A stretch of DNA of 64,000 nt. Origin: Candidatus Iainarchaeum sp. (lineage in GTDB: Archaea; Iainarchaeota; Iainarchaeia; JAGGVJ01). Position 1 is the stretch's first letter. Each line of letters starts with the position of its first letter. The position numbers and the translations under genes were made by a program. The stretch lies in the NCBI GenBank assembly GCA_021158055.1, contig JAGGVJ010000040.1:36474-100473 (forward strand), given 5' to 3'. Positions 28,371-51,792 of this stretch are shown here, in pieces. Below the pieces are notes generated by a model. That model had not been told where the DNA came from and did not search any database. It saw only the letters and a program-made list of their open reading frames with translations.

Positions 28371-28378
28371 TCTCAAAA

Positions 28379-29501: not shown

Positions 29502-29516
29502 AAAGAGGTATGAAAA

Positions 29517-29816: not shown

Positions 29817-29820
29817 ACCG

Positions 29821-31638: not shown

Positions 31639-32330
31639 TTGCACGCGGACAGGCAAGCTTTTTTGACGCGCTTACATTCCTTTTGATAGTGTCGGCAATT
31701 TCAGCCGCACTTGTTTTGTTTTCAACTTCTTACGGCCTGCAGGCTCAAAAAGCCCTTTACAACACAATTGACCTCGACTACACAAACAGTTTGATGAACG
31801 CATTGCTTCACGCAAAATACGAAACAGGTGAAAAAACATCAGGAAACTACCCTGTCAAAGAATTTGTTATCCAAGCAGTGAAAAGAGAGCTTTCCTTTGT
31901 GGGTTCGTCTTACACAAAAGACAAGCTGATCTCACTTAACAGTCACACTTACGGCGAAACAAAGCTAAAACAGACTCTGAAAGAGTTAATGGGCCCTGTT
32001 TTTTACCAGAAGGGATTGATCTTTTTAATGACTGACATCGACAAGCCGAATGATAAATTTGTGTACTGCCTGTTTCATGAAACAGGAGATAATCTGGAGT
32101 ACTGCAGCGACTCTGGGTTTACAGAAATCAAAGACATTTCAGGCCACATCTCAAAAAAAGAAAACGTTTTTTCTGCCAGCTCGCTTCTGGCAATCCCCAT
32201 TAACAAACTAAATACAAACAAAGATAAAACCCCAAGCAACACAACAACTAAAATAGCCACATTTATAATTGACGAAAACTTCAGGGAAAAAAGACACGTA
32301 AAAATGACTTTGATGCTTTGGGATTTATAA
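31635..32330 (+). CDS. Pilin-like protein, class III signal (RGQASFFD)
   Basis: A 231-residue protein, last of the row. Leader MIARG, then QASFFDALTF and a hydrophobic helix (about 13-31), fits a class III signal; the exposed domain (about 35-231) is the largest of the set. The start is GTG at 31635 with GGTG five bases upstream, overlapping the previous stop; GTG 31629 is an alternative. It is convergent with the zinc-ribbon membrane protein. Confidence 0.8.
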   Translation: MIARGQASFFDALTFLLIVSAISAALVLFSTSYGLQAQKALYNTIDLDYTNSLMNALLHAKYETGEKTSGNYPVKEFVIQAVKRELSFVGSSYTKDKLISLNSHTYGETKLKQTLKELMGPVFYQKGLIFLMTDIDKPNDKFVYCLFHETGDNLEYCSDSGFTEIKDISGHISKKENVFSASSLLAIPINKLNTNKDKTPSNTTTKIATFIIDENFREKRHVKMTLMLWDL

Positions 32331-34445: not shown

Positions 34446-37400
34446 ATGATCTTAAAACAAGTATTTTCAATATTTTTGTGCGGAATCCTTCTGCTGTCAC
34501 TCCCACCGATAACCCTTGCGGCAAACGGAAACCCTGTTTACAGCGCAGGCAGCGGCGAATCCACCAGCTACTCTCCGACAAGCCTTGAAAGCACTTGCAA
34601 AACCACGCGCCTTCTGCCCGAAGAAGTCCTGAAATTGTGGGATAATACAATCGGTGAAAAATCAACTTCGATAATTCCCATGGACGAAAGCGCGGAATCA
34701 ATAAACGGCATTCCGCAAAGCAACATCAACCCCAACGCCTCAATAGTAGGCGACAACGGCGAAACAGTCACTGAAGTGCCAAACGAGCTCATCCCAACAA
34801 AACACTACGCAAACCTTCTTGAAAACGGAATGATTACCGGGGAACAGATCTCCGTAAGCTACTCCACAAAAAAAACCGTGCGGATAGGACGCGCGCACGA
34901 AAACACCACACTTGGAAAAACCGGTGGAAAAAACAAGCCTTCCGGAGCATATGTTGTGACTCCGACAGAGAGCAGGGACTTTGAAGTGCGCGAAGAAGGA
35001 AACCCTGACGACATTGCTCTTTTCAGCGACTTCCAGAAAAGATTCAACCAAATGGTAACAACAGGGATAGTGCTTTCCTTTGTGGGACCCGGCTTGTTTG
35101 AAAAGGCCTACCTGAAGTATTTCGGGCCAAAAAAACCCGCCGGAAAACTCTTTGGGAAAAACGTGCAAGCGCAAAAGCTTGAAAAAACAATGCCTGTTTC
35201 ACACAAGGAATTCATGAAAATTAGCGATGACCTCGACAAAGAGCTGGACGAATTGAGCAACACCATAAACCAGTGCATTGGCTGCAAAAATTTTCTCAGG
35301 GCAGCCGTGAACAAAGAAGGTATTGAGCCGGAAATGATTCAGGGTCTTCTTAAAGGCACAGAAGGCAACCCGGGTTTCAGGGCACAAGTACTAGGCTTTC
35401 TTGAAGACTGGTCCAGTTATGCAACGAAAAAAAACCAGCTCATGCTGCACGAATGGCAGACCGCGCAAAGATATGAAGACCTGATAAAAGGAAAACTGAT
35501 GGGCAACGGTGCCCTTGAAAATGCACCACTCGGGCTTATCACGCCTGGAAGCAAATTTTACGGTTACGCTGACGAAGTCGTGGAGGTCGTTTCAGGGAAC
35601 AACACCTACAACGCTCTTCACATAACAGACCCTGAAAAAATAGGGGACTTATTTGCAGTCACAGACCTTACAAGACCCAGGCCGCAGTGGTTCAGGGACA
35701 TCATGGTGGAACACTACAACGAAATCGAAATAGACGCAACGTCAAGACTTAAGGGCATGCTCTCAAAAAATGGGTTCAAAATCCATCTTAAAGACGGAAG
35801 GATAATAGACGCCTCCCCCCAGAAGATGAACGAAATAAGCGACCTTACCCAGATAAGCCACATTGAAGTAAAGGGCGGGGCATGGGACATACCAAACGAC
35901 TGGTATGAAAATGAAGGAGAAGAGCTTTGGAGAAGATTCAACGGCTACATTGATTCAAGAAACTTTGAAAAAGAAATCGGAATGGAAGTAGGTTACTCAA
36001 AAGGAATAAAAAGCACGGAGAAAGGCCTCATAGCAAGAGACAACACTTATATCATTGACAAAAAGGGAAGGCAAAACATAATCGAAAAAGGACAAGTAAT
36101 TCCGGAAGGCTCCCACATTGTGCAGGAAGGCACGTTCGTCACTCCGGGAATTGGAAAAGAAATACGCGAAAAGAAACTTCAATGGGGTATGAGACAACAG
36201 TACGCAAATTCAGTTGATAACATACAGGAAGTTTTGGACAGCATACTCGGCCCGGGCTGGAAGCCGAAATACATAAACCCTGAAGAGACAGCAAAATACA
36301 ACTTTGAACGGTGGATGCTTTCACTTGACATGACAAAAGCATGGGGAGACGGAAGCACTGTTGCAAGGCAGTCAATCGAAAGGTTCATGACAGTAAATGC
36401 GGTGGGTTTTGTCAGAGGGACCCTGCTGATAAACCTGTTCAGCAAACTTCACCTCGGCTCGTTCACAATCTACCCGGGCCCGATAAATGCGCCGGGACTG
36501 GACTCGGGTGAAAAGCTTTACGACGAAGCATACCTGGACATATTTGCAAACTACAAGCTTGACGACGGCGACTTTTTCAACAAATACTGGCTGAACAACT
36601 TTGTCATGCCCCTCCCTGTCATAAAAGACCTTTTCGCAGACGAAAACAGGGCAGGGCAAGTTGACAACATGGCTTACATTGACTCGACGATAGAAGGGAT
36701 AATTTCAGGCGGCAATCCCAAGGTAAAGCTTGGAAGCCTCGCGAAAGCCGATTCAAACAAATCGCTTGAAACGTTTGACATAATAAAAGACTTCAACAAC
36801 GTGCCTTCAGAAACTTTCGCAACTGAATTCCCGAAGCCGAAAAACAGGAAAATCGGAAGAACACTCCTTTCAAAAACAAACGAAGTGAACATTGAAAGCA
36901 CTATCGGGGGAAATGACTCCGAAGGGATCGACCTGTCGTACTCGATGGGTGAAAACGAGCTCTGCGACCAGAAACTCCTTTCAAAAGACATTGCGACAAT
37001 CCCTTACCTGAACAGGGAAATGTCGCTTACAGACCCGATGACTGCCGGGCTTGAACTGTTCCCGGGCCTCGGGGACATAATGGTGTGGGGTGTGGAGACA
37101 AAGTTCTCGGAATGCATTGATGATTCATATTACCTGATGCTTTACACTTCATTAAAAGAAGACTCAAAATCCCAGGACGCAGTAAGAGAACTGCAGGACG
37201 CGGCGTCCCAGGCGACAGCGTTCTTTGACAGCGCCGGCGTTGCTGAAAACGGCGCGTCGCTTGATTCAACTGCCCAGGAAATACAAAACAAGATATCAAA
37301 CATGTCAAAAGCGCAAAACATGCTTCAGGCAAACGCGAAATTCAAGCACGGGTTCACGGGTTCAAACAGTTCGGACGGGCTGTTTTATTTCTGGTGCAAG

Positions 37401-38801
37401 GAATGCGAAATAACCAAAAACAGCGAAAACGGCCGCGAATGTTATGAAAACAGCGAGGGAATAATGGTATGCATTGATGCTGCGGAAGGAAACATAACCG
37501 GCTCTGAGGGAAACCCGATTATCGGGTGGGGGTCCCCGACCGCTGACCAACACCCTTTCTGGGGAGAAGACTTTGCAAGAATACAAAGAAAAGACATGGG
37601 GATTCCAGCAACAATGATTCCGCAAAGCATGACTTACCTGACCCTGCCGGCCGCAAACGAGACAATGTTTATAATTGACAACAAGGGCTACTCCTGGATA
37701 CACTCAGAAGAAGCAAGCAATTGTTTCGGGAAAGCGGTTGCAGACCAGACCGGCCAACCCCTGCAGTCCAACAGCTTGTTTGAAGTGCTCGGGTTTGTCA
37801 TCGCAGTGGAAACAACAGACGGGGTGGGTTCAGTTTCAGACAACTCCATATTCTTTTCAGGCAGTGATCTGAGGGTGATTGGTGAAGACAAATCAGAAAT
37901 GACAATCTCGACAGACAGGAAAACAGGCCTTTCAGGAAACCTCAAAGGCGCAGAAGAACGCACTTCAATGGGTGAGATGACAAACATTTACTTCCAAAAC
38001 GGTCTCGTAACCTGGAAAAAGGGAACAGACAAGCTCATAATCTGGATCTACTCGCTCGGGAGCGCAAACAAGCAAAGCGTGCAGAACATGGAAGTAACCC
38101 CAACAAAAATAACCAACGAAATCAACGGGTGCGTTGCAGAATGGGCATTTGACCTGCAGATAATGGGCGCTGCAAACCCGCTTGCGCAAAAAGACGTTGC
38201 GGGCCTGCAGCAAGGTCTTGATACGATCGGGCCTGTCCAAATCTTTGAAACAGACGACGAAATATTCCAGTTCACTTCAAAACTAGAGGACATCTGCCGG
38301 TATTACCTGAAAATCTACAACAAAAAAACAAGGGAATGGACCCAGTTTGAAATAGAGGACGTAGTCACGGTCCCGGGCGGATTCAAGATAATCGGGGTCG
38401 AGGACGAGGAACACACCCTGCTTTTCAGGGTCGAGGACGGAAGGCCAATTCTCACTCACAACGGGCAGGACCAGTTCATAAAATCAGCAAGCGCCAAAAA
38501 CGGCACTTTTTATTACGACCCGTCAAGCGGGACGTGGTACGCAAGCAACAGCCAGTTGATTCCTTTAAGCGACCTTTTCAAGCAAAACGGGTTCAAGGTT
38601 TCTTCAGACAACGGCCAGACCTCGGCTGTCCCTGGACAAAATCCGATAGGAAGCCTTGTGATAAACAACCCGGGCGCGCCAATTGCGCCGCTTAATCTGC
38701 CGCTCTTCCCGCAGGAACCCGCAATGCTTGCTTTAATGCTTCTTGCAATGCTTTCTTCAATGCTTGCAATCAGACTTAAAAGAACGGAGGGAAACAAATG
38801 A
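34446..38801 (+). CDS. Large secreted protein with C-terminal membrane anchor
   Basis: A 1451-residue protein. A Sec signal peptide (hydrophobic 5-22, likely cut after LAA at about 26) is followed by a long exterior region with a further hydrophobic segment near 205-220, and several Cys pairs (CIGC, CKEC). The C-terminus has a Pro-rich spacer, a hydrophobic helix (about 1423-1443) and basic residues (RLKR): the three-part plan of sorting signals. It could thus be a substrate of the archaeosortase-like protein, but a plain anchor is equally possible. The start is ATG 34446 with GGTG at five-base spacing. I considered an intein and found no splice-junction motifs. Function unknown. Confidence 0.83.
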   Translation: MILKQVFSIFLCGILLLSLPPITLAANGNPVYSAGSGESTSYSPTSLESTCKTTRLLPEEVLKLWDNTIGEKSTSIIPMDESAESINGIPQSNINPNASIVGDNGETVTEVPNELIPTKHYANLLENGMITGEQISVSYSTKKTVRIGRAHENTTLGKTGGKNKPSGAYVVTPTESRDFEVREEGNPDDIALFSDFQKRFNQMVTTGIVLSFVGPGLFEKAYLKYFGPKKPAGKLFGKNVQAQKLEKTMPVSHKEFMKISDDLDKELDELSNTINQCIGCKNFLRAAVNKEGIEPEMIQGLLKGTEGNPGFRAQVLGFLEDWSSYATKKNQLMLHEWQTAQRYEDLIKGKLMGNGALENAPLGLITPGSKFYGYADEVVEVVSGNNTYNALHITDPEKIGDLFAVTDLTRPRPQWFRDIMVEHYNEIEIDATSRLKGMLSKNGFKIHLKDGRIIDASPQKMNEISDLTQISHIEVKGGAWDIPNDWYENEGEELWRRFNGYIDSRNFEKEIGMEVGYSKGIKSTEKGLIARDNTYIIDKKGRQNIIEKGQVIPEGSHIVQEGTFVTPGIGKEIREKKLQWGMRQQYANSVDNIQEVLDSILGPGWKPKYINPEETAKYNFERWMLSLDMTKAWGDGSTVARQSIERFMTVNAVGFVRGTLLINLFSKLHLGSFTIYPGPINAPGLDSGEKLYDEAYLDIFANYKLDDGDFFNKYWLNNFVMPLPVIKDLFADENRAGQVDNMAYIDSTIEGIISGGNPKVKLGSLAKADSNKSLETFDIIKDFNNVPSETFATEFPKPKNRKIGRTLLSKTNEVNIESTIGGNDSEGIDLSYSMGENELCDQKLLSKDIATIPYLNREMSLTDPMTAGLELFPGLGDIMVWGVETKFSECIDDSYYLMLYTSLKEDSKSQDAVRELQDAASQATAFFDSAGVAENGASLDSTAQEIQNKISNMSKAQNMLQANAKFKHGFTGSNSSDGLFYFWCKECEITKNSENGRECYENSEGIMVCIDAAEGNITGSEGNPIIGWGSPTADQHPFWGEDFARIQRKDMGIPATMIPQSMTYLTLPAANETMFIIDNKGYSWIHSEEASNCFGKAVADQTGQPLQSNSLFEVLGFVIAVETTDGVGSVSDNSIFFSGSDLRVIGEDKSEMTISTDRKTGLSGNLKGAEERTSMGEMTNIYFQNGLVTWKKGTDKLIIWIYSLGSANKQSVQNMEVTPTKITNEINGCVAEWAFDLQIMGAANPLAQKDVAGLQQGLDTIGPVQIFETDDEIFQFTSKLEDICRYYLKIYNKKTREWTQFEIEDVVTVPGGFKIIGVEDEEHTLLFRVEDGRPILTHNGQDQFIKSASAKNGTFYYDPSSGTWYASNSQLIPLSDLFKQNGFKVSSDNGQTSAVPGQNPIGSLVINNPGAPIAPLNLPLFPQEPAMLALMLLAMLSSMLAIRLKRTEGNK

Positions 38802-39304: not shown

Positions 39305-40060
39305 TCAGACATACATTGAGTTGCCTGAATTGTTTTTTGTGAACTTTTCTTTCTCGTTTTTGAGCTTGTCGTAAACAATCTGCAGCTGGTTGTCAACAAG
39401 TTTGGCTTCTTTTAAAAGCGGTTTTATGTCAAGGTCAAACTTAAGCAGCTTGCTTAACTTGGTAATCACTGCCGCAGCAGAGTGATAGTCAGGTAGGTCT
39501 GCGGGAGTTTCTCCAAGAATACTCAACGCAGGCTTTTTGTCTGAATGGCACCGCACAAGCAAGAGAGCAGAAAGCCCGGAACTTATGCCGTCATTTATTA
39601 TTTCAACATCAAGCGACTTGAGCTTTTCAACCTCGGCGTCAGTGCTTCCAAACCCAAAAACCTTGGGTTCGGCTCCGTTCTTTTTGTTGTCAGTAACCTT
39701 CCTGCGGGTCTTTATCCCGCTAAGCGACACCATGCTTTTGAAATTTCTTTTGCTTGCCCAGTCATAAATCGCGTCTGACACTTCGTAGCTGACCTGCATC
39801 GGCAGCGCATATTCAGAAATGATCAAAATAATATCCATTTTTTCGCTTGCATAAATTCGCGCTGAATGAAACGGTTTTCCGTTGTGTATTATTACAAACG
39901 GGGGAAACTTGTCTGAATCAATGAACCCTATTTGTTTCATGTCAAGTTTTTCAATCAAATACTGTGCTGCGATAACACCGACTTTTCCGCTTCCGCTGAA
40001 CCCCTCGATGAGTATCGGGGAATCAAGTGAAACATCTTCAAATTCAACTATATTCGTCAT
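39305..40060 (-). CDS. PAC2-family proteasome assembly chaperone-like protein, HbYX tail (1)
   Basis: A 251-residue PAC2-domain protein. Family landmarks are the N-terminal SPILIEGFSGSGKVGVIAA (about 14-32) and the ISEYALP region. A C-terminal helix follows, and the last residues are Met-Tyr-Val, a hydrophobic-Tyr-X (HbYX) motif of the type that docks in the pockets of the 20S proteasome alpha ring. Archaeal PAC2 proteins such as PbaB use this tail. GGTG lies five bases before ATG 40060. A paralog at 51901-52614 ends Met-Tyr-Gln. It follows the pilus cluster on the same strand but probably has its own promoter in the 40061-40208 spacer. Confidence 0.85.
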   Translation of the reverse strand: MTNIVEFEDVSLDSPILIEGFSGSGKVGVIAAQYLIEKLDMKQIGFIDSDKFPPFVIIHNGKPFHSARIYASEKMDIILIISEYALPMQVSYEVSDAIYDWASKRNFKSMVSLSGIKTRRKVTDNKKNGAEPKVFGFGSTDAEVEKLKSLDVEIINDGISSGLSALLLVRCHSDKKPALSILGETPADLPDYHSAAAVITKLSKLLKFDLDIKPLLKEAKLVDNQLQIVYDKLKNEKEKFTKNNSGNSMYV

Positions 40061-40149
40061 TTTTTCACCTTAATCTGCTGCGAGTTCAAAAACAAAAATC
40101 TTCAAAAACGCTTTATATGCATTAATAAAAAAATATGATTCAATATAAT

Positions 40150-40193
40150 AACATTGGCATTCAACCCTGATAACATCGGCACTCAACGCTGAA
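40150..40193. repeat. 22-bp imperfect tandem duplication
   Basis: Units 40150-40171 and 40172-40193 match at most positions (aacat-ggca-tcaac-ctga). A partial third copy may follow. They lie upstream of the PAC2 gene at 40060. Confidence 0.75.
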
Positions 40194-40208
40194 AACATTA
40201 AGTTGCAT

Positions 40209-41147
40209 TCAAACAAGCAATCCGCTGAAAAACAAAAACACAAAAAGTGCGCATGGGAGCATCAAAGCCGAATAAAGAACGCCTTTCCTGATGTTTCCCT
40301 CCTGCAAAGCCAGGAAAAACGATGCGATAACCGAATACAAGGCAAGGTAAATGTGGGTTCCGAAAACAGCGTTTTCAAGCACTTCTTTTTTAAGTGCCGA
40401 ATCCATTCCGAAACCGATTTCAACAAGCCCTGAAAAATCAAGCGACGAGACCATACCAAGCAGTATTCCAAGTATGGCCGGCACAAAAAAAGCACCTGCC
40501 AAAATCAATGTGTACTTCTCAATAGACAAAGAAGCCTGACTTTCCCTGTAAAGTGACCTCACTTCGTAAATATCATCTGCGACTTCGCGCAGGGCTATGC
40601 TCATGTCAAAACCTGTTGAGTAACCCTGGCTCAGGAGAACGCAGGCTCGCCTGACAAGGGAAGAATTGCACCGCCGCCAAAGCCCGTCAAATGCCTCCGG
40701 AACAGGTGCCCCTGCATTTATCTGTTTCAGGGTCAGCGCAAATTCATCGGAAAGCCACGGATAATTCGAAGAAGAAACCGACGCAAGCGATCGTTCAATT
40801 GGCGAGCCTGCAGGAAAAGAAGACATTTGGTAAAGGGCGTCAGGCAAAAACAGCTCTATCTGGCTTACTCTTCTTGCGCAGATCATTCCCGCTGAAAAAA
40901 ACACAATCAAGGGAGGCGCAACTATTGAGAAAAACAAAAGAATCCCCTTCATTGAACTGACTGAACCGCCTGTATCAAACAAGTCAGATGCGGCTAAAAC
41001 CAAAAAAACCAAAAAAATGCTTGCAAGATAAGACAAATCAAAAAAACGGTAAATGTCTGTTTCCCCAACTACCCTTGACAGCTCTTTTGACAACACTAAC
41101 AAATTGTCTTTTCCAAAAACAATATCTGAAATCAGTCTCATTTGCAT
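40209..41147 (-). CDS. TadC-like T2SSF platform protein, system 2
   Basis: A 312-residue membrane protein. Two spans near the N-terminus (about 40-57 and 67-90) precede a helical T2SSF domain (about 95-200, with LFLPDALYQMSSF and GYSTGFDMSIALREVAD), then further spans (about 210-305). It resembles TadC and forms the membrane platform together with the next-upstream gene and the Fe-S ATPase. ATG 41147 has TGTG five bases upstream. The 69-base gap to the previous gene consists largely of tandem repeats. Confidence 0.82.
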   Translation of the reverse strand: MQMRLISDIVFGKDNLLVLSKELSRVVGETDIYRFFDLSYLASIFLVFLVLAASDLFDTGGSVSSMKGILLFFSIVAPPLIVFFSAGMICARRVSQIELFLPDALYQMSSFPAGSPIERSLASVSSSNYPWLSDEFALTLKQINAGAPVPEAFDGLWRRCNSSLVRRACVLLSQGYSTGFDMSIALREVADDIYEVRSLYRESQASLSIEKYTLILAGAFFVPAILGILLGMVSSLDFSGLVEIGFGMDSALKKEVLENAVFGTHIYLALYSVIASFFLALQEGNIRKGVLYSALMLPCALFVFLFFSGLLV

Positions 41148-41152
41148 CACTT

Positions 41153-41213
41153 CACAACCTCATTTCAATCATAATTCACAACCTCATTTCAATCATAATT
41201 CACAACCTCATTT
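41153..41213. repeat. 24-bp tandem repeats between two TadC-like genes
   Basis: Units 41153-41176 and 41177-41200 are identical, and 41201-41213 is a partial third. Each unit on the minus strand contains a GAGGTTGTGAA motif, which in the last copy is the ribosome site of the 40209 gene. So the ribosome-site region itself has been duplicated. Confidence 0.93.
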
Positions 41214-41216
41214 GCA

Positions 41217-42068
41217 TCACTTCATAAAAACAGGGGTTTTTGAACGGATAAAACACAAAACACCCAGGTCAATCAACGGAAAAACAACTGCGGGAATTAA
41301 GAGCGCCTGCATGGGAGTAAAAGACAGGTAAAGAAAATTTGAGCCGACAATAATAAAAGCCTGAAAAAGCGCCGGCACTATTGCTGAAACCGCAATAAAA
41401 ACAAGCGAAAACACAACCAATCTGCCGTTGTATTCAGTCATTTCAGATTTTTGCTTTGAAAGCTGTTCCTGCGCAACAGCCTTCAGCGGTTCTCCCGCGG
41501 TTCCTTCATCTGGTTTTCCCTGCTCGTACACTGAAATCATGTGGCGAACACATCTTTTGAGATAAACTGAATCAACGCGCTCCCCAAAACCATTTAACGC
41601 GGACTGCACCGAAGCACCTGCAACACGAATATCCAAAAGCACGATCCCCATTTCTTTTCCGGCTTCCCCAAAAGACGGGTTGGCTGCGTTTTCAAGCACT
41701 TTTTCAAACGGAAGATTCACATTTATCTCAATTGCCATCGTGCGAAGAAGAAGAGGGAGCTCTGACTCAATTTTTTTTCCCCTGATTTTTTTAAGGCGGT
41801 TTGGGTAAAAACTTAACCCAAAAAAGTACACGGCAAAAAACAGTAGCGAAAAAACAACAGGGAAAAACACAATACTCAGCCACAACGACACCACTGAAGA
41901 AACAAAAAGAGAAACCAGTACGGCAACCAAAATCACTGCCGAAACAAATGAATCCACACTGCTGTCAATCCCCGCCTGCAAAAGGTCTTTTTTCAGTTTT
42001 TCTTTTCTTTGCGCAGAACAAAAAACTTTCAAAAAACCGTTTTTTAATGCAACTTCCAAGCCACTCAT
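41217..42068 (-). CDS. TadC-like T2SSF platform protein, system 2
   Basis: A 283-residue membrane protein with paired spans (about 35-90), a T2SSF helical domain (about 105-205; ESELPLLLRTMAIEINVN) and C-terminal spans (about 210-275). It pairs with the 40209 gene product as the platform of system 2. The start is ATG 42068, with GGTG at five-base spacing; a longer frame to 42146 runs into the ATPase gene and is rejected. Confidence 0.83.
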   Translation of the reverse strand: MSGLEVALKNGFLKVFCSAQRKEKLKKDLLQAGIDSSVDSFVSAVILVAVLVSLFVSSVVSLWLSIVFFPVVFSLLFFAVYFFGLSFYPNRLKKIRGKKIESELPLLLRTMAIEINVNLPFEKVLENAANPSFGEAGKEMGIVLLDIRVAGASVQSALNGFGERVDSVYLKRCVRHMISVYEQGKPDEGTAGEPLKAVAQEQLSKQKSEMTEYNGRLVVFSLVFIAVSAIVPALFQAFIIVGSNFLYLSFTPMQALLIPAVVFPLIDLGVLCFIRSKTPVFMK

Positions 42069-42111
42069 AACAACACCCGCCCATTCACAACAACACCTGT
42101 CCTTTGCTGCC

Positions 42112-43917
42112 TCAAACATCCCCTGCATCAAAATAAAACCCGCCATCGCTATTTTTCAGAACAAACCTGAGCTTTTTCTTTGCGTGCTTCAGTTTTTCCG
42201 CAAACTTTTCACCGCGAAAGGCCATTTCAACTTTTCTTTTTATCACAACACTGCTGCCTGCTTTTTTCAGTTTCCCCTTTGAATGGTCAAATTCAAAAAC
42301 AGTGTTGATTTCAGGGGCACCGTCTTTGCTTCGTTTTATCTCGCTTATCTCAACAATTTTCCTGACCTCTCTTTTTGCCTCTTTGCTGAACTCAGTCCAC
42401 CTTCTCTGAACCACAATCAAGTCAATTGACGGCAAATCAATCCCAAGCACGCCAAGGTTTTTCAGCCTGAGAAGCGCTTCCGAAGCGCTTTGCGCGTGAA
42501 ACGTGGCAAAAGACCCCTTGCCCTGGCCGGCAAGAACAGTATTCATGAACGCTTTTGCCTCGCGCTCATCCCGCACCTCACCCACTATTACGCGGTCCGG
42601 GCGCATGCGCAAAGAGTCAAGAACCAGGTCACTCATGCTCACTTTCAAAGAATCATTTACTGCCAGACGCACCACGTGAGGGTGAGGCAGGTTTATCTCC
42701 GGGGTTTCCTCTGTAACTATTATTCTTTCGTCAATAGGAACAAAAGAAAAAAGAGCATTCAAAGTAGTGGTTTTTCCCGAACCCGTGTTTCCTGCAATCA
42801 CCATGCTTGAATCTACAAGCATTGCAAGACACAAAAAACTCATTGCGTCCAGGTTAATCGTCTTGCTGCTGATTAAATCAGCCGGCGTAAACGGCTTGCT
42901 TCTAAACTTCCTTATTGTCAAAACACAGCCGTCAAGCGCAAGAGGAGGGATAACAGCATGCATTCTCGAACCGTCTGAAATGCTTGCGTTGAGCCTCGGG
43001 GTTGTGAAAGTGACTCTCCTTCCAAGCGACCTCGCCATCTTATTTATCACTGCAATGGTTTTTTCGCTCCCTGTCAAAAAAAGGTTTGTTGCAAGCCACC
43101 CGAAAGAATTGTGAAAGACATAAACGGGTTTCTCGTCGCCTATCAATGCAATCTCTTCAATTTCATCGTCCTTCATGAGGCAAGAAAGCGGCCCGAACCC
43201 TGTTATTTCGTTTTTTATGATTTCAAACAGGTAACTCTCCTGAAAATCATCAAGCTCCAGGCAAAGCGCGTCACAGTACCCTTCAAGCAGGTGTTTCAAA
43301 TCCATTTCAATGTTGCTGTCTTCTTTGGCCCTTATTTTTTGCTTGTATTTCAAAAGGATGTCTGAAACAATTTTTGCTTCGCTTCCGCTGAGCTCCGGAA
43401 CATCAACGATTTCGTAAAAATTTAACTGGCAACTGCTGCCGTGGCGGTTATCAGCGAAAGCGTTTCTTGCTGAACAAATTATTCTGGATTCGTTTTCCTT
43501 AAGCACAAGCGGGCGTTTGCCTGAAGAACGCGGTTTTATTTTCCAGCCAAGAACTTTTTCAGGCGGCAGCTCATCTGAAAAGTCAACGCTCAATGCATTG
43601 ACAGGGCAGACCTTCACGCACTCGGGAAACTGCCTTGACATGCACAAGTCGCATTTTATTAAGTGGCCTGGTTTTATGGCTTCAAAATCACATTTTACGG
43701 TACATTCCCGACAAGTTGCGCATTTTTTCGTGTCAAGCACAAGCACTCCCTGAAACGATTCAAAAAAAGCGTTTTTCGAGCATGTTTTCCTGCACAATGC
43801 AGTGTCCGGATCGCAGTGCTGGCACTCAAATACCATGTATTCAGTGGGTTTGTTCGGACACGCGTCCAGACACTTTCCGCACTTTATACAAATATCAGAA
43901 TCCCGCCTGATTCTCAT
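42112..43917 (-). CDS. Polyferredoxin-pilus ATPase fusion, system 2
   Basis: A 601-residue fusion. Residues 1-105 hold sixteen cysteines in four groups (Cys 10, 13, 16, 20; 32, 35, 42, 46; 66, 69, 72, 76; 89, 92, 100, 104), the layout of four-cluster [4Fe-4S] electron-transfer subunits such as HycB/DmsB. Residues about 180-560 are a GspE/CpaF-type pilus ATPase with Walker A AGNTGSGKTT (about 373-382) and Walker B DRVIVGEVRD (about 440). This joins a redox module to an assembly motor. ATG 43917 is preferred, as it sits before the first Cys motif; TTG 43926 is an alternative. The two TadC genes follow closely. Redox control or electron transfer coupled to pilus function is inference. Confidence 0.9.
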   Translation of the reverse strand: MRIRRDSDICIKCGKCLDACPNKPTEYMVFECQHCDPDTALCRKTCSKNAFFESFQGVLVLDTKKCATCRECTVKCDFEAIKPGHLIKCDLCMSRQFPECVKVCPVNALSVDFSDELPPEKVLGWKIKPRSSGKRPLVLKENESRIICSARNAFADNRHGSSCQLNFYEIVDVPELSGSEAKIVSDILLKYKQKIRAKEDSNIEMDLKHLLEGYCDALCLELDDFQESYLFEIIKNEITGFGPLSCLMKDDEIEEIALIGDEKPVYVFHNSFGWLATNLFLTGSEKTIAVINKMARSLGRRVTFTTPRLNASISDGSRMHAVIPPLALDGCVLTIRKFRSKPFTPADLISSKTINLDAMSFLCLAMLVDSSMVIAGNTGSGKTTTLNALFSFVPIDERIIVTEETPEINLPHPHVVRLAVNDSLKVSMSDLVLDSLRMRPDRVIVGEVRDEREAKAFMNTVLAGQGKGSFATFHAQSASEALLRLKNLGVLGIDLPSIDLIVVQRRWTEFSKEAKREVRKIVEISEIKRSKDGAPEINTVFEFDHSKGKLKKAGSSVVIKRKVEMAFRGEKFAEKLKHAKKKLRFVLKNSDGGFYFDAGDV

Positions 43918-43935
43918 TTCCCGCAAAGCCCCAAG

Positions 43936-44322
43936 CTATTGCGCCCGAGTCTCAAGCACATCGTTTATTTTCAAATTTTTTGCCATCCCCGCAGGCAGCT
44001 CCACAATATACTTTGCTGCCTTTTCTGGAACTACCATGGGGGTAAACGGCTTAATATTCCTTTTGATGTCCACTATTTTCCAGGCGGAATCCAGGAAAAC
44101 AACGTCAATTGAAAAAAACACAAAAAACATATGTATTGCCGCATCAAGCCTGGCTTCGTAATCAAGCACAAAAATAAGTGCATGGTGCGTTTTCCCCCTA
44201 AACATCAGGCCCCTCATTCTCTGAAAAAACGTAAGCGCCCACTCGACCTTGCCTGAAATCAGTTTTTTGTCGCTTTTTCTGAAAAGAGCTTTGTTGTTTT
44301 TACTTTTATTGTTTGGATCCAT
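43936..44322 (-). CDS. DUF192 family protein
   Basis: A 128-residue protein with the DUF192 (COG1430) hallmarks: MRGLMFR, IHMFFVFFSIDVVFLD, and the final ELPAGMAKNLKI. Function of the family is unknown; many members are exported, but this one has no signal peptide. The gene lies between pilus systems 3 and 2 with gaps of 18 and 31 bases, so it is part of the same transcription unit. AGTG lies five bases before ATG 44322. Confidence 0.86.
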   Translation of the reverse strand: MDPNNKSKNNKALFRKSDKKLISGKVEWALTFFQRMRGLMFRGKTHHALIFVLDYEARLDAAIHMFFVFFSIDVVFLDSAWKIVDIKRNIKPFTPMVVPEKAAKYIVELPAGMAKNLKINDVLETRAQ

Positions 44323-44353
44323 AAAAACACTAAACCATGCGTTCTTGTCTGCA

Positions 44354-45583
44354 TCACGTGAGCTGGACGTACCATTTCTTGTCCTCGTAAAGAAGTTCTA
44401 TGAAAACTTCCGCCGGCTTAACCACTTTTACATAATTCGGCCTTACGGCCAGGTCGCCCTGCTTGCACGGAACGCAAACACCCGAGTCCCGGAAAGCAAA
44501 ATCATTACTGACTAATCCTTTTATCCACTGGTCATATGGCTCTGCTGTCTCAGACATTTTGTTAAGGTGCCTTGAAATGTCCTCGCGGTGAATATCCTTT
44601 GTCAGGTAATACGAGCCGATTGCAACTTTCATGTCTTCAGAGCCTGGTGGAAGAATCAAAACCACTTCCGATATTCTTGCAACAGGATTCGGAACCGGAA
44701 CAAAGAACTGGAAAACAAAAAACCCAATAAACACCAGGATAAAAGCGTGTTTCAAACCCGCAATGGCCCTTCCTTCACTCATAATTCCCGCGACAAGCCC
44801 GTTGAAAAAAGCCTGTATGAGCGCCAGATTCATCAAAAGTGTCCTGAAAGACCCTTCAGATATTACTGCCCCTCCGCCGAGAATCTCTTTTAATCCTGCC
44901 ATTCTGGGAAGCGCGGGAATAAACCCCAACTGAAGCACGGCGACAATTCCAAGAAACACGACGTAAATAAAATACATGGTATAAGTGTATATCTGAAGGT
45001 TTCCTTTTCTTTCAGCTTCAAGCTGTTTGATTTTTTGCGCGTCAATCGCAACGGTTTCAAGAATGTCTGCAATGGATCCCCCTGAACGGTGGGCTTCAAG
45101 AATAATCGAAACAGACCTTTTTATTATCTTGCTGTCTGTCCTGTCCGCAAAATCTTTAATGGCTTTTGAAAACGGAACCCCCCAAGAAATCTGGTTTGAT
45201 ATCTTTTTCACTTCAATAGACAAATCACCATAATAAGTAGTGCTTGTGGCGTAAACTGCTTTTGGAAGAGTCATTCCCGCCCGTTTTGATTCCGAGATAT
45301 CCCTGAGAAAAACCGGAAAACTCTCTTCAATTCTCTCAATCCTCATATAATCGTTGTACTTGTGGTATGCAAGCGGCCCAAAGCCTACTATCAACCCGAT
45401 AAAAACCCAGTTGAAAAACGAATCTGTTCCAAAGAAAAACAAAAACGCCACCAAAAGCGAGATAATCAACATGAAACCGCCGAAAATATAATACAAGTGC
45501 TCGGCTTTCAGCTCAAAGCCGTACCTGCTGGCAAGATTCTTTGCTTTTGACCAGTACTCTTGTGACAACGCGTAAATATCCAT
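44354..45583 (-). CDS. FlaJ/TadC-like T2SSF platform protein with C-terminal extension, system 3
   Basis: A 409-residue membrane protein. Spans at about 30-72 lead into the T2SSF domain (about 80-195; ESFPVFLRDISESKRAGMTL and EAHRSGGSIADILET), then further spans (about 200-310). A soluble C-terminal extension (about 315-409) with one CVPC motif is not typical of TadC. Its start overlaps the stop of the partner gene by one base (TAATG). Confidence 0.87.
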   Translation of the reverse strand: MDIYALSQEYWSKAKNLASRYGFELKAEHLYYIFGGFMLIISLLVAFLFFFGTDSFFNWVFIGLIVGFGPLAYHKYNDYMRIERIEESFPVFLRDISESKRAGMTLPKAVYATSTTYYGDLSIEVKKISNQISWGVPFSKAIKDFADRTDSKIIKRSVSIILEAHRSGGSIADILETVAIDAQKIKQLEAERKGNLQIYTYTMYFIYVVFLGIVAVLQLGFIPALPRMAGLKEILGGGAVISEGSFRTLLMNLALIQAFFNGLVAGIMSEGRAIAGLKHAFILVFIGFFVFQFFVPVPNPVARISEVVLILPPGSEDMKVAIGSYYLTKDIHREDISRHLNKMSETAEPYDQWIKGLVSNDFAFRDSGVCVPCKQGDLAVRPNYVKVVKPAEVFIELLYEDKKWYVQLT

Positions 45584-46473
45584 TACACCACTTCTTTTGG
45601 TTTGCTTGAGTCAAGCAACAATATAAACAATACTGACATCGCCGGTATTACAAGATAAATTGTCAGCTCAAGAAGAGCTTTTCCCCCGATCGGGAGGTTT
45701 AAACCCCCTATGATTGACATTATGGCAAGCATGACTATAAAAAGAATCGGGGCTGCCACAAACATTGTCGTGTATATCTCGGAAAGCATGGAAAGGGTTT
45801 CAATGTAATCTCTTTCAATCCTTCTGTGCTCTTCAAGCATGATCTTTGCCTCTTCGTTGAGGTAATCTCTTATGACCCCTCCGGAACGGATAATTGAAAC
45901 TACCCCCCAAAGTACGTCAGAAAACTTTTTTGACGGGCACTTCATTGCAACTTTTTTCAGTGCAGTGTTTATGTTGTAACCGAAAATTTGCGTGTTTCTG
46001 ACTATGTCTTTGCATTCCCTTGAAATTTCCTTGTATTCATCAAACTTTGACATCAGCTCAAACACTTTGTCCGGGGGGATTCCCGTACCTGCAATGGTTG
46101 CCATGTGGGTTATGGCATACGGAAGGTCCCCATCTATACTTTGCTTGCGTTCATTTATCCTGTAAGTCGGGTAAAAATAAAAAAACATAAAAAAAATAAT
46201 GCCCATTATGAAAGCACCGATTACAGCTGTTAAAAACATAAGCATGCTTATCATAAAACCAAAAAACACCAACAGGAAAAATATTAAAAAAAAAGACGCA
46301 ATAAAAACAAAAACTGAAGTTGCAAGAGACCCTGCCACATACTCTTCACTTGTCATGAGTATTTTTGCACTGCGCAGGCTGCCCTGAAGGTCCCCGAAAG
46401 AAGGCATTATTATATCAACATAGTCTTTCAGTCGCCTGTATGCTGCCAACCTGTATTCTCTCGGAAATATCAT
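45583..46473 (-). CDS. TadC-like T2SSF platform protein, system 3
   Basis: A 296-residue membrane protein. Two strong spans (about 45-100), the T2SSF domain (about 110-220; GDLPYAITHMATIAGTGIPP) and C-terminal spans (about 230-290). It pairs with the 44354 gene product. The start is ATG 46473; GTG 46479 is an alternative. The ATPase gene ends 53 bases upstream. Confidence 0.86.
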   Translation of the reverse strand: MIFPREYRLAAYRRLKDYVDIIMPSFGDLQGSLRSAKILMTSEEYVAGSLATSVFVFIASFFLIFFLLVFFGFMISMLMFLTAVIGAFIMGIIFFMFFYFYPTYRINERKQSIDGDLPYAITHMATIAGTGIPPDKVFELMSKFDEYKEISRECKDIVRNTQIFGYNINTALKKVAMKCPSKKFSDVLWGVVSIIRSGGVIRDYLNEEAKIMLEEHRRIERDYIETLSMLSEIYTTMFVAAPILFIVMLAIMSIIGGLNLPIGGKALLELTIYLVIPAMSVLFILLLDSSKPKEVV

Positions 46474-46526
46474 TTTCACAACTCACATGTGCTCCTGATT
46501 CACTCTCCCGGATTTTTCAAACACAT

Positions 46527-48935
46527 TCACATGTTTTTGAGTATTTCATCCGGGTTCTTATAGTACGTATTTATAATTTTTCCAACTTCCTTGTAATACC
46601 TTATATTTGATTTTTTCATCCAGTCAAGAACTTCGGCGCGTCTTCTAAGCTCAGCCCACAATGATTCTTCAGAAGTTCCCTTTTGCTCAATAATTTTATT
46701 TAATATATACGACTTATCAGAAACAAAAGCAAAAGTGTCATCAGTCGGGTTCCATTTCATAACTGTATTTGTTATCGGTTTCCCGGTGTCAATATCTATT
46801 CTTATGATTTCTATGAGTTCAGTTACGCGCCTTACTTCCATTTGTTTTATCCTGGTGTGATGCATAAACAAAACAAGGTCAAGACTGCTTAACAAACCAA
46901 GAGGCAGGTTGATTGGCTTTGTAATAAGCCTGTTAAGAAGCTCTGAAAAGTCACCTGCGTGAATCGTTGCCATTCCGGGGTGTCCGGTTGCCATTCCCTG
47001 GAAAAGGACGTTTGCTTCCACCCCACGCACTTCCCCCACAATTATCTCATCAGGCCTCTCCCTTAAAGCCGCTTTAAGCAAGTCAAACATGGACACTTCA
47101 CCTTGTCTTTTGCCCGTGACATCAACTGATCCAAAACCGGTCCTGATGACTTTCGGCACCCAGTTCTCGTGCGGAAGGTTAATCTCGGGAGTGTCCTCAA
47201 TCGAAATAATCTTTATCCCCGGAGGCAAAAGCATTGAAATCGAATTCAGAGTGGAAGTTTTTCCGCTGGCAGTTCCACCGCTGATCAGGAGAGACTGCTT
47301 GTATTCAACTGCAAGCCACAGAAAAGCAACCATCATGGAAGGTATTGTTCCCGAGCTTATAAGGTCGATCACAGTCAAAGGGTCTTTTGTAAATTTCCTA
47401 ATAGTAAACGTTGAGCCCTTCATGGAAATTTCATTTCCGCTGCTGTACGTCGCCTGCACCCTGGAACCGTCTTCAAGCGAACCGTCAAGAAGGGGGTCAG
47501 CAACACTTATGTGTCTTCCGCAGCGCTGGGCAAGTTTTATCAGGTATGAATTCAAGGATTCCGTATCAATAAATTTTTTGTTTGTTTTTATGGAACCGTA
47601 TTTCCTGTGGAAGATATAAATAGGCAGGTTTATTCCGATGCATGAAACGTCCTCTATCTCCTTGTCCCTCATAAACGGCTCAATAATCTCCAGCCCGATG
47701 AAATCCCTTTCAATATAATACTTCATTTTTTCGTACTCTGATTTCGTGAGAAAAATGGCGTAATCCTGAATTATGCGGTCCATCTTATTGTATATATAAT
47801 CGCGGATTTTTTCCTCTTTTTTCAGTTCAAAAAGGTTCACATCCAAAAAGTCAATCAAAAGGGTTTTTATACGATCCAAGGTCTTTTTTTCTCTTTCCGT
47901 TAACGGCGGCTCGAGAACATAGTACATTAAACCGTTTATCTGATCAATCCATTTTATATTCGAATACGCATACGGCTCAATAAGCGAATATTTTTCGTCG
48001 ACTTTCTTCAAATCAACCGGCTCCCACTCGCTGGACATCTTTTTTATCAGGTCTTTTGGTATCCTGTGCATTGTTTCAGGAAGGTTTTTCATACCCATTT
48101 TATTGACTATAAAATCAGCTTCCCCCTTGCCCACTGCTTTTATCTGGCTAAGGTCAATTTGCTGGTATACTTTTGGGGACCGTGAAAAAACAACCATCGG
48201 AACAGTCGGCGCAGCAACTGAAGCTACAGGGGCAACATCACCGCGTGAAGCAATAGCACCTTCCGCTCCTTTAAAATACCCCTCCAAAAAGCCCTGGTTT
48301 TGAACTTTACCGGTAGTAATTTTTCTGCCCCCCTGCTTCCCGGAAAATCCAAGAGCAGACGGCTTGGGCAAATCGCTTTTGCTATCGCCGGAACCCGACT
48401 CTTCAAACAAAGTATTCTCTTTAAGATATTCAAACGGATTCTTTTGAGGCCCCCTGGCTTCTCCGGCTTCCGTTTTACCTTTTTTTAGTTTTTCATTCAT
48501 TTCTATGATTTCAGGCATGAAAAAATCCGGCTCGTCAAGGTCAATGCTGGAGTCAATTTTTGCTGCCTGCAAGTCAGATTTTTCCGGTGTTTTTCCATTT
48601 TCGTCGTCAAACATCTGTTCTTCTGAAACAACTGATTCAACAACTTCTTGTTTCAGTGGCTCTTCAGATTCTTCTTGTCTTGCTGTTCTTTGCCAATAGC
48701 CTTCAGGGGGTTTTTCAATAACCATTTTTTTGTAAAGGTTATCTGTCAAAGCGCTTCGCTTTTTTGAAGAAGCTGACCTGTACACTACAACAGGTTTTTC
48801 CTCAAACGACGACTGCACGTGTCTCTTGCCTGAATATTTGCGCGGTTTCGAAACCCGTCGCGCAGCTCCGGAAATAAGTTTTCTCGCTACTTTTTTGTTT
48901 ATCTTTTTTAAAATACCGTTGTTGATTTTAGCCAT
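46527..48935 (-). CDS. Type IV pilus/archaellum-type assembly ATPase, system 3
   Basis: An 802-residue GspE/FlaI-family ATPase. An N-terminal extension (about 1-260) is basic then acidic and low in complexity, an unusual feature that may bind partners. The catalytic domain has Walker A GGTASGKT (about 551-558), the Asp-box region SIEDTPEINLPHEN, Walker B DEIIVGEVRG (about 627-636) and His-box ATIHAGD. No ribosome site is seen before ATG 48935, and a TATA-like AATATTAATT lies upstream, so it may be leaderless. It heads the system 3 genes and probably the DUF192 and system 2 genes too. Confidence 0.9.
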   Translation of the reverse strand: MAKINNGILKKINKKVARKLISGAARRVSKPRKYSGKRHVQSSFEEKPVVVYRSASSKKRSALTDNLYKKMVIEKPPEGYWQRTARQEESEEPLKQEVVESVVSEEQMFDDENGKTPEKSDLQAAKIDSSIDLDEPDFFMPEIIEMNEKLKKGKTEAGEARGPQKNPFEYLKENTLFEESGSGDSKSDLPKPSALGFSGKQGGRKITTGKVQNQGFLEGYFKGAEGAIASRGDVAPVASVAAPTVPMVVFSRSPKVYQQIDLSQIKAVGKGEADFIVNKMGMKNLPETMHRIPKDLIKKMSSEWEPVDLKKVDEKYSLIEPYAYSNIKWIDQINGLMYYVLEPPLTEREKKTLDRIKTLLIDFLDVNLFELKKEEKIRDYIYNKMDRIIQDYAIFLTKSEYEKMKYYIERDFIGLEIIEPFMRDKEIEDVSCIGINLPIYIFHRKYGSIKTNKKFIDTESLNSYLIKLAQRCGRHISVADPLLDGSLEDGSRVQATYSSGNEISMKGSTFTIRKFTKDPLTVIDLISSGTIPSMMVAFLWLAVEYKQSLLISGGTASGKTSTLNSISMLLPPGIKIISIEDTPEINLPHENWVPKVIRTGFGSVDVTGKRQGEVSMFDLLKAALRERPDEIIVGEVRGVEANVLFQGMATGHPGMATIHAGDFSELLNRLITKPINLPLGLLSSLDLVLFMHHTRIKQMEVRRVTELIEIIRIDIDTGKPITNTVMKWNPTDDTFAFVSDKSYILNKIIEQKGTSEESLWAELRRRAEVLDWMKKSNIRYYKEVGKIINTYYKNPDEILKNM

Positions 48936-49016
48936 CAGAGAAACTAAATGGTTTTGAATTAATATTTGTTTTGATTTTTTTGAAAAAATAACAAAAATAC
49001 CTAAAAAATCAACGGC

Positions 49017-49760
49017 TCAAAAACTTATGGATCCAATTATTGAAAAAATAATAAGAAAAAGCAGATTTGTTGAGAAAAAAATTGAAATTATGTAACCTGC
49101 AAGCAAGGCAAACATAAACGGCGGAAGAGGGGTTACCCAGACAAGGTCTTTTATCTTTTTTTCTGCAACAAGTTTCTTCAGACGCTCAAATTCATCGTCA
49201 GGGTCAACGTTTGGAACAAGATCAACCTGCCTTTTTCCTTTCCCGTCAAAAGAAACTTTTTCAAGCGGAGAAACAAAACTGTTGCATTTAATTGAACTTA
49301 TTTTTACAGGATAACCAATAAAATAAAACAACGGGTTTTGCGGTTTGTTTGCGCGAAACAAATTCCATGCAAAAACACACACCGGGACTGCAACGGCACT
49401 CAAAAGCAATGCATTTACAAAAACCGACAACGAAAAATACACGGTTTGAGCCGGACTTGCAAACTGGTTCAGGGAAGCAACTGCAACAAGGGCTTTTAAG
49501 TCGCCCCCTCCGATATAAAGAATGGGAAAAATTTCCCCTGCCTTATGCAAAACAAAAACAAAAACAAAAACAAGCCCTGCTGAAAAAACGAACGCCTGCA
49601 TTACCTCAACTTTAAGTGAAGCAAGCGAAAGCAACAAGCCGACGGCAACTGCGATCACCCAAACCTTATCCGGAACCTCGCGAAATTTAAAATCAAACAC
49701 ACTTGCGACCGCAAGCATCAGAACAGTAAACGCAACGGAAACAAAACCAAATAAAAACAT
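49017..49760 (-). CDS. Prepilin peptidase (A24 aspartate protease, class III signal peptidase)
   Basis: A 247-residue membrane protease that removes the leader of class III prepilins. The two catalytic aspartates are Asp23 (SVFDFKFREVPD) and Asp87 in the GxGD-type motif GGGDLKAL (about 84-91). About six spans are visible, with an unusually long hydrophilic loop (about 145-205) before the last two. It is the only such peptidase in the window and so probably serves all three pilus systems. It lies upstream of, and on the same strand as, the system 3 ATPase. Confidence 0.9.
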   Translation of the reverse strand: MFLFGFVSVAFTVLMLAVASVFDFKFREVPDKVWVIAVAVGLLLSLASLKVEVMQAFVFSAGLVFVFVFVLHKAGEIFPILYIGGGDLKALVAVASLNQFASPAQTVYFSLSVFVNALLLSAVAVPVCVFAWNLFRANKPQNPLFYFIGYPVKISSIKCNSFVSPLEKVSFDGKGKRQVDLVPNVDPDDEFERLKKLVAEKKIKDLVWVTPLPPFMFALLAGYIISIFFSTNLLFLIIFSIIGSISF

Positions 49761-49934
49761 ACAAACAACTTCAAAACACCCTAAAAAACGCTTTATCTAT
49801 CATATTATCACAATGTATCAAAACACACAGCATATATATTAAAAATACATCCTATATATAATACTTAAAATACTTATTTGGAAATTGCATTTATTTATAT
49901 TTATTTATACTGCAAACAATTCAACGGTGAAAAT
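49761..49934 (+). promoter_or_regulatory. Divergent AT-rich promoter region
   Basis: This spacer separates the prepilin peptidase (leftward) and the UppS-like gene (rightward). It contains TATA-like tracts at about 49831-49840 and 49851-49863. A reading frame continues upstream of the UppS-like start but is AT-rich and lacks a ribosome site, so the spacer is treated as noncoding. Confidence 0.45.
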
Positions 49935-50630
49935 TTGCTCAACTCAATCGCTTTTATCCCTGACGGCACAAGAACTTACGGCAAGCAAAACAACTTGTCT
50001 GTCAAGGAAGCGTATTCTTTAGCAGTAAGCAATGCATGGGACATTCTTGAAGAATTAATAAATTACAAAACAATTAACTCATGCACTTACTGGGTGTTAA
50101 GCACTGAAAACTTCAGGCGCTCAAGACTGCAGATTAAAGTGCTTTTCAGAATTTTCCAAAAAGAGCTTGAAAAAATTTCCGAAATGGACTTTTTTGAAAA
50201 AACCGGCGCCCGGCTCAATTTCATAGGCAGGAAAACAATGCTTCCCACAAAACTCCAGGAGCTAATGAAATCATGCGAGAACAAAACAGCAGACTACGGA
50301 GAAAAACAAGTGAACATCGCCATTGCTTACGGGGGCAGGTCTGAAATTGCCGACGCCTGCAAAAAAATATGCGTGAAAGTTCAGGAAAACAAATTGTCGC
50401 CTGACCAGATAACCGAGGCAACAGTCAGGGAAAACCTTTACCCCGGAACAATTGACCCGGACTTTATAATCAGGACAAAGGGAGTAATGAGAACCTCTGG
50501 TTTTCTTGCATTTCAATCCGATTACTCAGAATACTATTTTTCAAAAAAGCTCTGGCCCGAATTCAACAGAACCGACCTCAAAAATGCAATAAGCGATTTT
50601 AATTCAAGAAAAAGAAACTTTGGAAAATAA
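49935..50630 (+). CDS. uppS: Cis-prenyltransferase (undecaprenyl/polyprenyl diphosphate synthase)
   Basis: A 231-residue cis-prenyltransferase that extends an allylic diphosphate into the polyprenyl lipid carrier for glycans. Conserved motifs are IPDGTRT (Asp10; family MDGNGR), STENFRRS (about 56-63), NIAIAYGGRSEI, DFIIRT and FLAFQSDYSEYYF near the C-terminus. The Asn after Asp-Gly is replaced by Thr, a departure from bacterial UppS. The start is TTG 49935 with GGTG at five-base spacing; a longer frame from 49878 is rejected. It ends one base before the convergent flavoprotein gene. Confidence 0.88.
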   Translation: MLNSIAFIPDGTRTYGKQNNLSVKEAYSLAVSNAWDILEELINYKTINSCTYWVLSTENFRRSRLQIKVLFRIFQKELEKISEMDFFEKTGARLNFIGRKTMLPTKLQELMKSCENKTADYGEKQVNIAIAYGGRSEIADACKKICVKVQENKLSPDQITEATVRENLYPGTIDPDFIIRTKGVMRTSGFLAFQSDYSEYYFSKKLWPEFNRTDLKNAISDFNSRKRNFGK

Positions 50631-50631
50631 C

Positions 50632-51732
50632 TCACCCAAAAACATATGAAAGAGCAGCCCGAACCAAAAACGACTTGTGGCGAAAAAACATTTGTTTTGC
50701 AAGCGCTTTTGTTTCCTCCATTTCACCAAACACGGAAACGGTCTCATCCACACCCTGTTCTTTTGCTTTCCTTAAAAGAGCATCAAACGATTTGTCTGAA
50801 ACTCTGTTCAGGCACTTCCTGATGAAAAAATGGTTTCTCAAATCCGCCTCAAACTGTTTCCTCCACTGCACTTCGTATTCCTGCGGGGAAAGGTGTGCAA
50901 AAGAAGCGCACAATCCCCCAAAAACCACACCCCCACCGCTTGACGCTTTAACCTGCCCGGCAGCATCCCCCACCACCAAACCGTTACTGCCCGCGGTTTT
51001 TTTGCGGATTCCCTGGGGTATTGCTCCCGACTGGACAGAAACCACTTCGCCTTCAGGAAACCTGTCCAGAAAACGACCTGCAAAAGCATTGAGGGTTCCC
51101 GGGTCGCGCACCCCAAGCCCCACCCTCACAAATTCTTTTTCCGGAACAACCCATGCAAAAAACCCGGGCGCAACCTTTTGCCCAAAATAAAGTTCAACAA
51201 AATTCCGGTCTTTTTCAATTCCCTCCAAAACAAACTGCTTTGCAAAAACCGGTGCAGGTGTTTTCGGAAGATTCAGCCAGGAAGCGGTTTTTGAAAACAC
51301 TCCGTCTGCCCCGACTATTCTTTCAACTTCAAACTTCCCGCAAGTCGTTTTCAAAACCGAAGTTGTGTTATTTGCAGAAAACCCGGTTGCTTTTTCACCC
51401 ACAAACATAATGCATCCTGCTTTTTCCGCTTTTTCTGCAAAATGCCTGTCAAGCGCCGAACGGTCAATTACGCTTGCCTTTGGTCTTTTGCCCGAGATTT
51501 CCAGAACATCTCCTGCCGGTGAAAAAATCCTTGCTCCTTTTACCTGGTTGACTGAAAACTTTTTCGGTTCGACTCCGATGCGCAAAAGACCTTTGTTGCT
51601 CACCAACCCTGTGCACTGCACCGGCTCGCCGACAACAGGGTGCTCTTCAAAAAGAGAAACATCAAAACCTTTTTTAGCGCATGTTCCTGCTGAAATTGCG
51701 CCGCAAACCCCACCCCCGATCACTGCAATCAA
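50632..51732 (-). CDS. Geranylgeranyl reductase family flavoprotein
   Basis: A 366-residue FAD-dependent reductase, of the kind that saturates geranylgeranyl chains of archaeal lipids. An N-terminal GxGxxG dinucleotide fold (VIGGGVCGA) is followed by PVQCTGLVS, typical of the family, and GLVVGDAAGQVKASSGGG binding the FAD ribityl chain. The start is TTG 51732, with GGTG at five-base spacing; ATG 51750 is an alternative. It is convergent with uppS; both act on isoprenoids. The substrate could instead be a polyprenyl carrier or a quinone. Confidence 0.85.
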   Translation of the reverse strand: MIAVIGGGVCGAISAGTCAKKGFDVSLFEEHPVVGEPVQCTGLVSNKGLLRIGVEPKKFSVNQVKGARIFSPAGDVLEISGKRPKASVIDRSALDRHFAEKAEKAGCIMFVGEKATGFSANNTTSVLKTTCGKFEVERIVGADGVFSKTASWLNLPKTPAPVFAKQFVLEGIEKDRNFVELYFGQKVAPGFFAWVVPEKEFVRVGLGVRDPGTLNAFAGRFLDRFPEGEVVSVQSGAIPQGIRKKTAGSNGLVVGDAAGQVKASSGGGVVFGGLCASFAHLSPQEYEVQWRKQFEADLRNHFFIRKCLNRVSDKSFDALLRKAKEQGVDETVSVFGEMEETKALAKQMFFRHKSFLVRAALSYVFG

Positions 51733-51792
51733 AAAATCACCAAAAACCATGTTTGTTCAACTAAACACAATATATTTTAATGCATGTCTCCT

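Follow-up and report, generated by a model that had tools for sequence, protein, structure and literature searches.

The window, by which we mean the whole stretch of 64,000 nucleotides that was analysed, contains on its minus strand a gene in which a [4Fe-4S] ferredoxin-type module, a linker and a T2SSE secretion ATPase are joined in one protein (Table 1). A preliminary description of this DNA had placed one continuous gene at these coordinates, correctly in both respects, and had left out the strand. The single open frame runs from the ATG at 43917 to the stop at 42112; an in-frame TTG lies nine bases upstream of this ATG, at 43926, and alignment with homologues favours the ATG as the start. 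In Pfam searches the N-terminus matches Fer4 (E 1.3e-7) and a later region matches T2SSE (E 4.6e-35), and the module ends at about residue 118, followed by a linker with an LGW motif at about residue 123 and then by the ATPase part. The motifs of the motor are complete and nearly invariant in the alignment, including the Walker A sequence GNTGSGKTT (residues 376-384), EETPE, RMRPDR..GEVR and the FATFH box, and the Walker A, Asp box, Walker B and His box features of the T2SSE class form invariant columns in the RecA-like core. The ATPase is thus intact with both Walker motifs, as had been proposed, and because its motifs are intact, the module is an addition to a working motor.

Table 1. Location of the fused gene, its parts and the neighbouring features discussed in the text.
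Feature	Coordinates	Strand	Remarks
Fused gene: [4Fe-4S] module, linker and T2SSE secretion ATPase	42112..43917	-	601 aa
Ferredoxin module DNA	43564..43917	-	residues 1-118; 16 Cys in four groups
T2SSE core	42370..43002	-	residues 306-516; Walker A, EETPE, RMRPDR/GEVR, His box
First TadC/T2SSF-like platform protein	41217..42146	-	overlaps ATPase 3' end; Pfam E 6e-5, 23.4 bits (cut-off 25.2)
Second TadC/T2SSF-like platform protein	40209..41150	-	Pfam E 4.6e-14, 52.9 bits
PAC2-family protein	39305..40060	-	comes after the platform genes in most relatives, in both phyla
DUF192 protein	43936..44322	-	beside the ATPase in both phyla
Large secreted protein	34446..38801	+	1451 aa; C-terminal anchor
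TadC-like protein, neighbouring unfused system	44354..45583	-	
TadC-like protein, neighbouring unfused system	45583..46479	-	
Second T2SSE ATPase (paralogue)	46527..48935	-	802 aa; FlaI/PilB3-like; without Fe-S module
Prepilin/preflagellin peptidase	49017..49760	-	Peptidase_A24; FlaK-like
Third T2SSE ATPase	23864-26158	+	69.6 bits

Both TadC-like platform genes that had been reported after the fusion are present, the first of them falling just below the Pfam cut-off. Two platform genes, or one of double length, lie directly downstream of the ATPase in nearly all of the fetched loci that are long enough, and the first platform gene is syntenic in most relatives fetched. The DUF192 gene stops 18 nt upstream of the ATG of the fused gene, and the order GGR-family flavoprotein, UppS, DUF192, ATPase, platform protein(s) and PAC2 also occurs in a second archaeal phylum. 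To call this a complete system, as the preliminary description did, is an overstatement: the operon consists of a motor and its platform, and neither a pilin-like ORF (by a simple pattern scan) nor a prepilin peptidase was found in it. The FlaK-like peptidase and a pilin-like ORF at 31629-32330 are both closer to other ATPases than to the fused one. The large secreted protein has no significant Pfam domain; its homologues (600-1700 aa) adjoin the ATPase-TadC-TadC-PAC2 locus in many relatives of the phylum, and it is a candidate cargo or partner of the fused-ATPase system.

Several further features of the surroundings were observed. Directly upstream of the fused gene lies an unfused pilus-type cluster (44354-49760, minus strand) comprising the 802-aa ATPase, two TadC-like proteins and the FlaK-like peptidase. 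The third ATPase opens a plus-strand run (23864-32330) that continues with a 751-aa protein and a series of small proteins, the product of 31629-32330 having a pilin-like N-terminus (MEVIARGQASFFDALTFLLIVS...); a partly homologous run occurs near the unfused orthologue locus of one relative (G049, L052). Two giant ORFs are present on the minus strand at 6029-12268 (2079 aa) and 12900-21197 (2765 aa). T2SSE motors number three in the window and seven in the genome above the Pfam cut-off. The genes for GGR, UppS, DUF192, the ATPase, TadC and PAC2 occur together in two phyla (39305-51750 in the window; L229, L231, L232 and L234), and this conserved block ties isoprenoid-lipid carrier genes to the surface system.

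Each half of the protein has well-characterised relatives. In phmmer searches of the PDB, the C-terminal part matches archaeal GspE, CpaF and FlaI, with 2oap (an archaeal type II secretion ATPase), CpaF (8rkd, 9e24) and FlaI (4ii7) as the best solved relatives, and the N-terminal part matches NrfC/HycB-type subunits. As in archaeal GspE2/FlaI and CpaF (TadA), an ATPase domain with all motifs is followed by platform proteins; the 2oap, CpaF and FlaI structures, however, match the ATPase part only. Against the NCBIfam equivalogs, the protein scores 185.8 bits for FlaI (NF058587; cut-off 550) and 177.3 bits for TadA (TIGR03819; cut-off 373), and since both cut-offs are missed, the fused ATPase is orthologous to neither and belongs to the T2SSE superfamily at large. 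Among solved structures, the module is closest to polyferredoxins and to the HycB, NrfC, FdnH and NarH subunits. It shares with DmsB, NrfC, HycB, FdnH and NarH the four Cys groups, their spacing and a ligand grouping deduced from quartet-wise losses (see below), but differs from them in forming the N-terminal domain of a motor and in having lost its outer clusters in some lineages, and no molybdenum or tungsten catalytic partner was seen in the fused-gene locus. No description of a pilus or secretion ATPase with a polyferredoxin module was found in the open-licence literature searched.

The fusion was found in 26 genomes, 21 from the window's own phylum (nine families) and five from the second phylum (three families). 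These 26 homologues rule out an assembly error or chimera, which the preliminary description had named as an outcome that would undo its reading, and its proposal that the Fer4 plus T2SSE architecture be sought across archaeal genomes is thereby answered. Most of the 87 genomes from the window's phylum encode the ATPase orthologue, and the module was found in 21 of the 69 orthologues extracted, a set that includes a few sequences truncated at contig ends; the remaining orthologues start at or near the LGW region, at about residue 123. In the second, larger phylum, 104 of 295 genomes matched at E 1e-100, among which G306, G398 and G484 matched across the entire fused length and G311 and G376 have shortened modules. 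Most other orthologues that share the conserved gene order are without the module. Four other archaeal phyla were examined and yielded no fusion: none was found in 23 genomes of other archaeal phyla, and further sets of 156, 115 and 151 genomes from such phyla contained no orthologue above a strict cut-off. A single-protein query of the genome collection gave no match, and the two closest contigs in a profile scan of the collection carry unfused orthologues.

All sixteen N-terminal cysteines that had been claimed in a four-group [4Fe-4S] spacing were located, at residues 10, 13, 16 and 20; 32, 35, 42 and 46; 66, 69, 72 and 76; and 89, 92, 100 and 104, and they are conserved in relatives: of the 21 fused orthologues from the window's phylum, 11 have the full set, as do three from the second phylum. 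With the Cys groups numbered I to IV, the clusters of NarH are held by I1-3+IV4, I4+IV1-3, II1-3+III4 and II4+III1-3. The corresponding sets in the fused protein we take to be C10, C13, C16 and C104 for FS1, C20, C89, C92 and C100 for FS2, C32, C35, C42 and C76 for FS3, and C46, C66, C69 and C72 for FS4. No paper spelling out the NarH ligand pairing was found in the literature searched; subunits of this type are described as having two domains, FS1:FS2 and FS3:FS4 (PMC8301774).

Natural variants of the module lose cysteines in these same sets. In family f7, exactly the four FS1 ligands are substituted, and in family f2 exactly the same four are gone, mostly via deletion; the two losses are different events at separate positions in the tree. 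One genus of f2 (g5) has in addition lost the FS4 ligands. Sets drawn motif by motif fail to explain these losses, and the chance that all three events would match ligand sets is about 7e-6 under a model that lets a single event take out two contiguous stretches of Cys, a value to be read as a guide, the ligand sets having come from prior knowledge of the fold and the test having been devised after the f7 sequence was seen. The NarH-type pairing is in this way matched, indirectly, for two of its four sets. The shortened modules of the second phylum retain 12 (G376) and 8 (G311) cysteines, which are multiples of four. The FS2 ligands are present in every fused copy of the window's phylum, and the FS2 motifs are retained in the second phylum as well. 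Because the lost sets are the expected ligands of single NarH-type clusters, these cysteines are very probably Fe-S ligands and not partners in disulfides. From its sequence, the N-terminal module is of the DmsB/NrfC/NarH type, with predicted ligands for four [4Fe-4S] clusters; the analysis supports the covalent attachment of a polyferredoxin module to a pilus-type motor, as originally proposed, and the loss of ligands in quartets strengthens the case that the module is of Fe-S nature.

Structure prediction (AlphaFold) of the module alone returned a pLDDT of 37. The SufBD core (PF01458) was not found in this 95%-complete genome, the control being positive in all 14 genomes, which possibly reflects a missed gene or another assembly system; a POR subunit is encoded in the same genome as the fused ATPase. 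Two-cluster variants (L208-L211, from G015, G004, G013 and G011) carry two new conserved cysteines in the motif F/Y-EC-V-K/R-GVLCA-D/E-GG, which are absent from the 16-Cys forms and may constitute a metal or disulfide site.

When a tree is built from the ATPase part by itself, fused members turn up on deep and shallow branches alike, a scatter that requires 9 changes, and the sequences of the second phylum make up one side of a branch. Every fusion has the same junction, and complete modules have the same 16 cysteines, so one ancestral fusion, lost repeatedly afterwards, is more likely than a series of independent gains, an argument from parsimony as opposed to proof. The fusion is real and old, and it probably took place in the common ancestor of the orthologue group in the two phyla, with many subsequent losses, either whole or cluster by cluster. 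Many orthologues are without the module and retain the motor and platform genes. The possibility that unfused orthologues are preceded by a split or decayed module was also considered and rejected: a profile search of the fetched loci in all frames gave no remnant. No stand-alone homologue of the module was found in unfused genomes at E 1e-14, a cut-off that also misses the most degraded of the fused forms and below which weaker stand-alone relatives could exist.

On these comparisons, the module is probably an ancestral add-on for which a regulatory role, by redox- or cluster-dependent gating, is the likeliest, and redox gating, which the preliminary description had suggested, is the leading idea. 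The best explanation overall, tentatively held, is a DPANN pilus or secretion motor with a probably ancestral four-cluster module that would be regulatory and gate the motor by cluster state. Fused just before the motor's own N-terminal region, the module would be cytoplasmic, seated on the motor hexamer, and would lie outside the core motor function. The state of the clusters (reduced or oxidised, or assembled or damaged) would be read mainly via FS2, the always-kept cluster and the one nearest the linker, and would alter the packing of the N-terminal region on the motor, in turn permitting or blocking assembly of the surface structure; a through-going electron wire forms no part of the proposal. 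It is possible, if doubtful, that this polyferredoxin fusion put surface-structure assembly under the control of redox or Fe-S status in the ancestor of the two DPANN phyla. Repeated loss of the module is equally compatible with a structural role, with protein binding or with decay of a dispensable domain.

The strongest rival to regulation by cluster state, rather unlikely in our assessment, is a mechanical or structural role in which the clusters, whatever their redox state, serve only to hold together a rigid module in contact with the motor or with a partner. ABCE1 (Rli1) provides the model, in that an N-terminal [4Fe-4S] ferredoxin-type domain with two clusters is fused to a mechanochemical ATPase and mechanically modulates it by tuning its conformations (PMC6656783), a precedent for gating as well. 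ABCE1 is, however, an ABC-superfamily protein of ribosome recycling, and the likeness is in the mode of working only. Two clusters of the fused module can go while two stay, as expected if some folded core suffices; yet four clusters are far costlier than a spacer requires, and the near-invariance of up to 16 cysteine sites in most fused families suggests that cluster chemistry matters. Quite improbable is a role in carrying electrons to a partner in the cytoplasm, for which the GGR-family flavoprotein (50632-51750) is the most specific candidate. Archaeal GGR is able to draw on a ferredoxin whose gene lies in the GGR locus, and the M. acetivorans enzyme needs the one from its locus (PMC10821996); the neighbouring GGR scores above the TIGR02032 cut-off, the GGR-UppS-DUF192-ATPase order recurs in the second phylum, and the fused ATPase is the only protein of the window with a CxxCxxCxxxC motif. 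There would be little sense, however, in tethering a carrier to a membrane-docked motor, and G272 has this GGR-UppS-DUF192 block in front of an ATPase that lacks the fusion, which indicates that GGR is independent of the module.

Very unlikely is a decaying relic, a module that was functional in the ancestor and is now carried along neutrally: many independent losses of the whole module and the stepwise losses of clusters would fit, but 14 sequences that have diverged to about 40% overall identity all retain the 16 cysteines, and the losses follow cluster boundaries cleanly, a sign of selection on the retained part. Export of electrons to the cell surface, an idea of the preliminary description, is highly improbable. 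A four-cluster chain of the same fold does serve as a wire in respiratory enzymes (PMC8301774), but the end clusters FS1 and FS4 are missing in whole lineages and the module itself from most same-operon orthologues, where the ATPase and both platform genes stay; export would depend on end clusters and on an outlet, and since end clusters and module are dispensable, an electron wire is unlikely. Moreover, the module has no signal peptide and no nearby membrane redox partner, and a scan of the window plus five other stretches of the genome turned up no protein containing at least two CxxCH motifs.

A disulfide-held domain, which Makarova et al. (2016; PMC4858521) proposed for the extra Cys-rich N-terminal regions on some pilus ATPases of methanomicrobial archaea and Thermoproteales, is barely credible in view of the canonical CxxCxxCxxxCP ferredoxin spacing, the matches to four-cluster subunits, the losses by Fe-S ligand quartets instead of pairs, and the expected cytoplasmic location. 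Those archaeal ATPases resemble the present one in architecture, their domains being interpreted differently in that text, which mentions neither ferredoxin, Fe-S, redox nor DPANN (PMC4858521).

Few motors have been studied as thoroughly as the secretion and pilus ATPases. If the clusters gate this one, they would provide a direct chemical link from the redox state of the cell to the building of surface, and perhaps contact, structures in these small archaea. The natural loss series, with four, three, two and zero clusters, is material for asking which clusters matter, and the present findings suggest that other Cys-rich N-termini of archaeal pilus ATPases, until now read as disulfide domains, merit a second look.
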